A model generated the notes under the pieces. The model was not told the DNA's origin. It saw only the letters and a program-made list of their open reading frames with translations, and did no database searches. Positions 37,392 to 38,540 of a stretch of DNA of 64,000 nucleotides are shown piece after piece. The stretch spans positions 19,967 to 83,966 of the forward strand of contig NZ_JADKYP010000029.1 of the NCBI RefSeq assembly GCF_015354405.1, given 5' to 3'. Made by a program: the position numbers and the translations under genes. Every line of letters begins with the position of its first letter. Within the stretch, counting starts at the first letter, position 1. The stretch is from Nocardia sp. BSTN01 (GTDB lineage: Bacteria; Actinomycetota; Actinomycetes; Mycobacteriales; Mycobacteriaceae).

Positions 37392-38540
37392 GTGGCCGAC
37401 GAGAAGGATGCAGCCGAGCAGTCAGCGACGCCGGCGGAGGCGCTCAGCGAAGAGGCTCTCTCCGCTGCGGCCGCCGCCGCGGAGAAGGCGTTCGCGGCCG
37501 CGGCCGACCTGGATGCGCTCGCCACCGCCAAGACCGAGCATATGGGCGGCAAATCGCCGATCGCGCTGGCTCAGCGGGCGATGGGCGGGTTGCCCAAACA
37601 GGACAAGGCCGATGCCGGTAAGCGCGTGAACGTGGCCCGTGGCCGGGTGTCGGACGCCTTCGAGGCCCGCCGCGCCCAGCTGCTCGCCGAACGCGACGCC
37701 GCCGTCCTGGTCGCCGAGGCGATCGACGTGACGCTGCCGGCCCGGCGCGGTGCGATCGGCGCGCGTCATCCCATCACGGTGATCTCCGAGCAGATCGAGG
37801 ACGTCTTCGTCGGCATGGGCTGGGAGGTCGCCGAGGGTCCCGAGGTGGAGACCGAGCACTTCAACTTCGACGCGCTGAACTTCCTGCCCGACCACCCGGC
37901 CCGCACCATGCAGGACACCTTCCACGTCGCGCGGTATATATCGGCGTCCGAGGCTGGGCCTGCGGGGTCACGCTCCGCCAGCGCCTCCGGCACTGACGCC
38001 TCGGACGCGGAAGGCTCCCGCCAGGTCCTGCGCACCCACACCTCTCCGGTGCAGGTGCGCTCGATGCTGTCGCGCGAGCTGCCGATCTACGTGGTCTGCC
38101 CGGGCCGGACCTTCCGCACCGACGAACTCGACGCCACCCACACCCCGGTCTTCTCCCAGGTGGAGGGTCTGGCCGTGGACAAGGGCCTGACCATGGCGCA
38201 TCTGCGCGGCACGCTGGACGCGTTCGCGCGGGCGCTGTTCGGGCCCGATACGCGAACCCGCATGCGGCCCAACTACTTCCCGTTCACCGAGCCCTCCGCC
38301 GAGGTCGATGTGTGGTTCCCGGACAAGAAGGGCGGCGCCGGCTGGGTCGAATGGGGCGGCTGCGGCATGGTCAACCCGAAGGTGCTGATCGCCAGCGGGA
38401 TCGATCCCGAGGTCTACAGCGGATTCGCCTTCGGCATGGGACTCGAGCGCACCCTGCAGTTCCGCAACGGCATTCCGGATATGCGCGACATCGTCGAGGG
38501 CGATGTGCGCTTCACGCTGCCGTTCGGCATCCGCGCCTGA
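37392..38540 (+). CDS. pheS: Phenylalanyl-tRNA synthetase alpha subunit with an inserted segment
   Basis: PheS with PheT charges tRNA-Phe as an alpha2-beta2 enzyme. 382 residues from a GTG preceded by GGGGAGAG. The N-terminal coiled coil binds tRNA; the class II catalytic core has [11 protein letters not shown], motif 2 [19 protein letters not shown] and motif 3 [15 protein letters not shown]. Residues about 181-206 ([20 protein letters not shown] followed by TDASDA) interrupt the usual [18 protein letters not shown] join; remembered PheS of M. tuberculosis has only four residues there (APED). The segment uses codons rare elsewhere (ATA, GGG, CCT, TCA, ACT, GCT) and its DNA ends in 11-bp inverted repeats. 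It keeps the frame, so the enzyme should still fold with a surface loop. pheT follows after 54 bases. Confidence 0.96.
37944..38008 (+). repeat. 65-bp inverted-repeat insertion inside pheS
   Basis: GCGTCCGAGGC (37944-37954) and GCCTCGGACGC (37998-38008) are perfect 11-bp inverted repeats framing 43 bases. The piece coincides with the extra residues of PheS and with a patch of rare codons. This resembles palindromic elements that insert in frame in coding genes in other bacteria (such as the Rickettsia palindromic elements). No second copy was found in the window. Confidence 0.7.

Follow-up and report, generated by a model that had tools for sequence, protein, structure and literature searches.

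The gene for the phenylalanine--tRNA ligase alpha subunit (pheS) of Nocardia sp. BSTN01 carries a short run of codons that most of its relatives lack, and the locus raises the question of what such a segment is and how it came to lie in frame in this gene. The gene is situated in a window of 64,000 nucleotides, meaning here the whole stretch of DNA that was analysed, from a 7.8-Mb genome, with pheT directly after it. It reaches 297 bits against TIGR00468 (cut-off 237; locus L126), and a single open frame runs through the insert. The features of the locus are collected in Table 1.

Table 1. Features of the pheS locus, in positions of the window
Feature	Position	Strand	Remarks
pheS, phenylalanine--tRNA ligase alpha subunit	37392..38540	+	probable start GTG 37392
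75-bp in-frame insert in pheS	37933..38007	+	gap against the empty pheS of relatives; adds 25 codons, read one base earlier; placement of the bounds may shift by one base
left arm of the inverted repeat, 11 bp perfect	37944..37954	+	GCGTCCGAGGC
right arm of the inverted repeat, 11 bp perfect	37998..38008	+	GCCTCGGACGC
conserved 29-bp core of the repeat family	37959..37987	+	core shared with other copies

The insert in pheS

The first-pass annotation had described an in-frame insertion of about 26 residues, absent from M. tuberculosis PheS and corresponding to a 65-bp piece of DNA. The insertion itself is borne out, since filled and empty pheS genes differ by a 75-bp gap in 6/6 comparisons (6 filled genes against 4 different empty genes), while its size needs correction, the net gain being 25 residues and the inserted DNA 75 bp long. 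Perfect inverted repeats of 11 bp had also been placed at the ends of the segment. They are present, as part of arms that pair over 14 nt at 93%, and the right arm does lie at the right end of the insert, whereas the left arm begins 11 bp inside the left end. The rare codons that had been pointed out are equally real: the codon-adaptation index, calculated with 10 long ORFs within the window as the reference, is 0.43 for the insert and 0.78 for the remainder of pheS, and none of 308 other 25-codon windows of pheS or of 808 windows of pheT is as low. Folded as RNA, the insert was better than 200/200 shuffles on the minus strand (z -5.3) and 196/200 on the plus strand (z -2.25). Elsewhere in the window, downstream of pheT, a 114-residue ORF (41345-41689, plus strand) has a MazF/PemK-type look by eye.

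In regard to the protein, sequence alignment places the insert between residues 173 and 175 of PDB chain 9drv_A, which we take to be PheS of M. tuberculosis. The structure model of PheS, made from an alignment of 51 rows (the window and 50 of the 80 named loci), was of poor quality, with a mean pLDDT of 56 and with residues 140-226 under 50. The copy would add a Ser/Ala/Gly loop ahead of the LRTHTSP stretch, which the enzyme could tolerate with no benefit required, and the loop is probably a tolerated passenger.

A repeat family of the genus Nocardia

Further copies, for which a search of the genome had been proposed, were found both in the same genome and throughout the genus. A DNA search with the insert detected its core elsewhere in the genome, the best match lying in an NRPS-like gene (named by eye, in line with similar loci whose domains Pfam identified), and gave matches in 109/151 Nocardia genomes at E<=0.001. 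The third-best match of the first DNA search (L003), a partial match in another ORF, was excluded as a copy. A pattern of the core with up to 3 mismatches was present in 141/151 Nocardia genomes, at 0 to 63 places per genome, and the reversed pattern, used as a control, had no match in any row. In a family-wide sample the core pattern occurred in 50/52 Nocardia genomes and in 0/349 genomes representing 30 further genera.

A covariance model built from 42 copies found at least 34 matches at E<=1 in the genome of the window (G000), at least 60 in G126 and at least 91 in G053, all three being lower bounds, with 150 first-look candidates scored per genome; the 24 of the 34 G000 matches that were listed all have E<=3.9e-4. 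In 30 genomes of other genera the same model yielded 12 matches in total, with a best E of 0.18. Tandem copies are frequent, with a spacing of 74-78 bp. The repeat thus constitutes a genus-wide family, restricted to Nocardia among the genomes searched. Nine loci holding copies gave no Rfam match at gathering scores. In literature on repeats in Nocardia and on MIRU-like elements there, judged by titles and the openings of abstracts and including few subscription papers, no description of the family was found, and the N. brasiliensis genome paper, in the part covered, mentions only CRISPR (PMC3670865).

The palindrome is a property of the family as a whole. When the two arms of 61 copies were scored for pairing, the mean was 6.39, against 5.20 (sd 0.15) with partners swapped between copies and a maximum of 5.59 in 200 such rounds; the sequences of the arms flanking the core are variable among copies yet remain complementary, i.e., they covary. 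A chance palindrome is ruled out by this control together with the genus-wide copies. RNAalifold recovered pairs in the core only, because the arms are unaligned, and the arms were then scored copy by copy. Of the traits of a MITE, terminal inverted repeats could correspond to these covarying arms, yet the left arm is not terminal in the pheS insert.

Taken together, the pheS insert very probably belongs to a non-autonomous, palindromic repeat of only ~74-78 bp that was detected in Nocardia alone and that we infer to spread as a MITE-like element. The comparison with small palindromic elements of Rickettsia made in the first pass was largely right, given the palindromic covarying arms and the in-frame copies in unrelated enzymes. 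The opposite outcome that it had allowed for, a loop shared by all relatives, with normal codon use and no second copy, was looked for and not found.

Filled and empty pheS genes

A PheS search gave a match in 150/151 Nocardia genomes. Among the matches listed, 15 Nocardia genomes align across the insert site in one piece, while the PheS rows of the remaining genomes break off or set in where the insert does, at residues 180 and 207 or 208. Where 30 loci of the genus were read directly, extra residues numbered 25 in nine, 23 and 20 in two, 4-10 in four and none in 15. In the named loci, they are missing from 11/11 outside Nocardia and from 4/6 within it, where a short six-residue loop is found instead. 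Most relatives are thus without the insert, as the first pass had proposed to check. That the segment is an ordinary PheS loop is ruled out by the short six-residue loop, present in 11/11 named loci outside the genus, 4/6 named Nocardia loci and 15/30 genus loci. In four species (loci L196, L197, L199 and L200) PheS has a different and shorter addition of 4 to 10 residues at this site, and that of L196 appears by eye to be an internal deletion of the element.

The long inserts occupy the same position and have similar arms, and their presence is patchy among sister species. Species with filled and empty sites intermingle both on a tree of pheS without the loop (42 rows, made up of the 30 genus loci together with 12 of the 80 named ones) and on a tree of the downstream DNA (22 rows). 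Over the columns used for the pheS tree, the flanks in two of the Nocardia genomes are identical to those in records named N. macrotermitis and N. veterana. In each tree, at least five changes of the filled label are required by branches with good support, and in the downstream tree this label clusters no more than shuffled ones do, 213/500 of which were as low. Between the two main clades, in pairs that are not independent, four-fold sites are 0.86 alike in the insert and 0.63 in the rest of pheS, while overall identity is 0.896 for the insert and 0.884 for the flanks. Within clade A, identity of the insert (0.916) is lower than that of the flanks (0.946), again in pairs that are not independent. 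In overall identity, which is close to that of the flanks between clades and below it within clade A, the insert has no advantage, and only its four-fold sites stand out, between clades.

Several processes may have produced such a distribution, namely repeated arrival, short exchange or constraint at the level of the DNA, and lateral exchange or repeated loss could take the place of movement in explaining the patchy presence. One account, which is compatible with a MITE-like repeat and which we consider quite possible, if somewhat short of an even chance, is that a single old insertion into pheS was often precisely deleted, or that a short tract was exchanged between species, with the hairpin DNA under constraint. 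The shared place and similar arms of the long inserts, the interleaving of filled and empty species on both trees and the divergence in clade A, which in the insert is at least that of the flanks, would all agree with it. It requires, however, many independent precise deletions in its first form. In its second form the exchanged tract would necessarily be very short, because between the clades the surrounding 120 nt agree scarcely better (~0.90) than does the gene (~0.88).

Copies between genes

The surroundings of the copies were classified with a codon model in 74 arrays. Of these, 29 are flanked by co-directional genes oriented against the plus strand of the element and 1 by co-directional genes of the other orientation, 4 are between convergent and 3 between divergent genes, and 14 are unclassified; a further 23 are inside genes, a share (23/74) that is biased upward, as the sample was drawn from best hits and a one-frame peptide query. 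Less biased counts come from two single genomes, with arrays taken from 24 of the 34 matches in G000 and from 70 of the 91 in G053. The 20 arrays of G000 comprise 4 in genes, 7 between genes and 9 unclassified; 9/20 match the core with 11-13 mismatches of 29, i.e., they are decayed or mis-registered. The 41 arrays of G053 comprise 21 convergent, 6 co-directional, 1 divergent and 13 unclassified, with none in genes.

In these two counted genomes most classified copies are therefore situated between genes, and in a fixed orientation: the neighbouring gene runs into the right arm in 27/28 arrays of G053 and 6/7 of G000, and in 33/37 classified intergenic arrays of the 74-array sample. In 18/29 co-directional arrays the stop of the first gene is the TGA of the right arm, and in 15/29 a start for the second gene is available 31-34 bp ahead of the core. 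With a stop codon in one arm and, in many cases, a start codon near the other end, a copy would do little harm between genes. In G053 (L363-L402), 21 of the 28 classified arrays are convergent, in contrast to the co-directional sites of the sample from other species, and a terminator role is possible for its arrays between convergent genes.

It is also conceivable, and likewise compatible with MITE-like spread, that the repeat is a functional intergenic element of a MIRU- or REP-like kind, made up of stop codon, hairpin, ribosome site and start and kept for regulation at gene ends, with the in-gene copies as rare accidents. This we regard as rather unlikely. The fixed orientation and the placement of stop and start codons described above would suit such a role; on the other hand, copy numbers that vary so widely by species (0 to 63 pattern matches) and in-gene copies that recur at many positions point to spread for the element's own sake.

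Copies inside genes

Copies were found in frame in pheS, murE, lnt, and genes for biotin carboxylase, acyl-CoA dehydrogenases and NRPS, the last at nine or ten positions as counted by eye. The identifications of pheS, murE and lnt reach NCBIfam cut-offs, and acyl-CoA dehydrogenase, biotin carboxylase and NRPS domains are above the Pfam cut-offs. For pheS, murE, acyl-CoA dehydrogenase and biotin carboxylase, all unrelated, relatives carry the gene empty. In murE, comparison of empty with filled genes shows 78-bp gaps in 4/4 alignments, with an opposite 3-bp gap in 3 of them, and open frames of 572 or 573 codons when filled and 547 when empty; at the empty site of G020 the pieces 1-299 and 325-572 abut, with 95% identity. 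The empty acyl-CoA dehydrogenase sites correspond to a gap of 75-78 bp in 5/6 alignments and, in the sixth, to a gap of 48 bp and then another one. Biotin carboxylase is empty in G078, where the gene has 698 codons instead of 723 and the pieces 1-278 and 301-722 abut; the one-piece alignments of this enzyme include shorter genes. Some biotin carboxylase matches contain in-frame stops (G139:C2:37422-39497, G077:C108:3344-5416 and a few others), possibly decayed copies or misplaced ends. No clear target-site duplication was seen in the alignments of filled and empty sites at pheS, murE and acyl-CoA dehydrogenase.

Tandem copies can also be in frame, as in an acyl-CoA dehydrogenase of G115 with two and an NRPS of G074 with three units between GDLVRW and LEYVG; the latter are consecutive 78-bp copies in an adenylation region, at ~1434-1620 of locus L296 (G074:C1:775500-778500). 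In G000, two tandem copies are in frame in a long ORF (G000:C156:33824-33958, L227), the first half of which is weakly AfsR-like, with a regulator match far below the NCBIfam cut-off; these copies may represent a gene end instead of a true insertion.

Among gene copies on the plus strand, 16/17 read GPA(G/W)SRSATASG or a close variant, a share of the favoured frame that is biased upward, with 7 of the 17 brought in by a peptide query, and 5/6 of those on the minus strand read PEAVAERDHAGP or a close variant. Like peptides in NRPS modules could suggest that the coding copies are a protein linker, a Ser/Ala/Gly loop under selection in its own right that passed from enzyme to enzyme through domain exchange. 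We hold this to be highly improbable: the presence of the same DNA between genes largely refutes it, gene copies on both strands give different peptides, the NRPS positions are mostly non-homologous, and the codons of the pheS copy are atypical.

With single strands folded, the copies of pheS, L135 and L174 were better than most shuffles, and those of L163, L148 and L274 no better than shuffles. That the segment is skipped, by ribosome bypass or RNA removal, and so absent from the protein is scarcely credible, since, the strong hairpin of the pheS copy notwithstanding, other gene copies have no folding advantage over shuffles and an open frame, unnecessary under skipping, is kept through the gene copies.

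Spread of the repeat

Returning to the MITE-like repeat as the preferred explanation, its movement is read from the distribution of the copies. Weighing against it are the failure to see a clear target-site duplication, G053 with 0/41 arrays in genes, the deviating sixth alignment of acyl-CoA dehydrogenase, the copies whose folding does not beat shuffles, the poor core matches in G000, and, in pheS, the patchy presence and the unremarkable overall conservation. The repeat would be moved in trans by some enzyme acting on the hairpin, which would be the form that this mobilising enzyme recognises. Insert lengths that are a multiple of three and stop-free frames would allow copies to persist inside genes, provided that host proteins tolerate the added loops.

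A bolder scenario, which we think unlikely, is a still-active, partly site-specific palindrome of Nocardia that re-enters and scarlessly leaves the same position in pheS, seeds loops in NRPS and multiplies in frame. If this were true, mobile DNA would be adding novel stretches of peptide to enzymes of housekeeping and of natural-product synthesis alike. The 151 Nocardia genomes offer filled and empty sites at close range, which makes movement of the element, the enzyme that moves it and the effects of the loops testable. For annotation, it follows that Nocardia NRPS domains can hold unexpected loops of ~25 residues.

Comparison with known systems

In-frame palindromic elements are best known from Rickettsia, and an apparently separate family does likewise in a GC-rich actinobacterium, where a tRNA synthetase and a cell-wall ligase are among the enzymes affected, as are NRPS at many positions. 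The published systems are compared here as the consulted parts of the cited papers describe them. Rickettsia palindromic elements (RPEs) are small palindromic repeats that keep the frame of the unrelated genes they lie in, and each codes for a peptide that recurs (PMC10969869). The Nocardia repeat is similarly palindromic and multi-copy, and it too has in-frame copies in unrelated genes, whose counterparts in relatives are empty. It differs in its length of 74-78 bp, against ~150 bp for RPEs (PMC10969869), in its GC-rich actinobacterial host and in that most classified copies of the two counted genomes are intergenic and often in tandem. The Rickettsia-type picture drawn in the first pass therefore stands for the in-frame copies, whereas the main home of the repeat is between genes, where it is MIRU-like as much.

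MIRU are units of 40-100 bp, frequently in tandem (PMC2734929), and are thought to be mobile, inserting at start codons and thereby coupling genes (PMC12548453). The Nocardia repeat shares the tandem units between genes, of 74-78 bp. As to an overlap of its ends with stop and start codons, a stop is in the arm in 18/29 co-directional arrays and a start near the other end in 15/29, but G053 prefers convergent gaps (21/28 classified arrays). Its palindromic arms and its sites between convergent genes and inside genes set it apart from MIRU, and the likeness drawn here is one of traits. The core pattern is absent from the 349 genomes of other genera of the family. Enterobacterial RU/ERIC and Coxiella MITEs are small and usually intergenic, sometimes giving in-frame gene fusions (PMC2759123; PMC10969869; PMC5896051); the Nocardia repeat, also small, intergenic and sometimes in frame in genes, is likened to them by description only and differs in size and host. 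REP sequences, short palindromes with many extragenic copies (PMC3733652), resemble it in both respects; the Nocardia repeat differs in its longer unit, direct tandem repeats and in-gene copies. Compared in this way by description, the Nocardia repeat appears to work like an RPE and, between genes, like MIRU; we assign it to neither and describe it as a repeat with traits of both.
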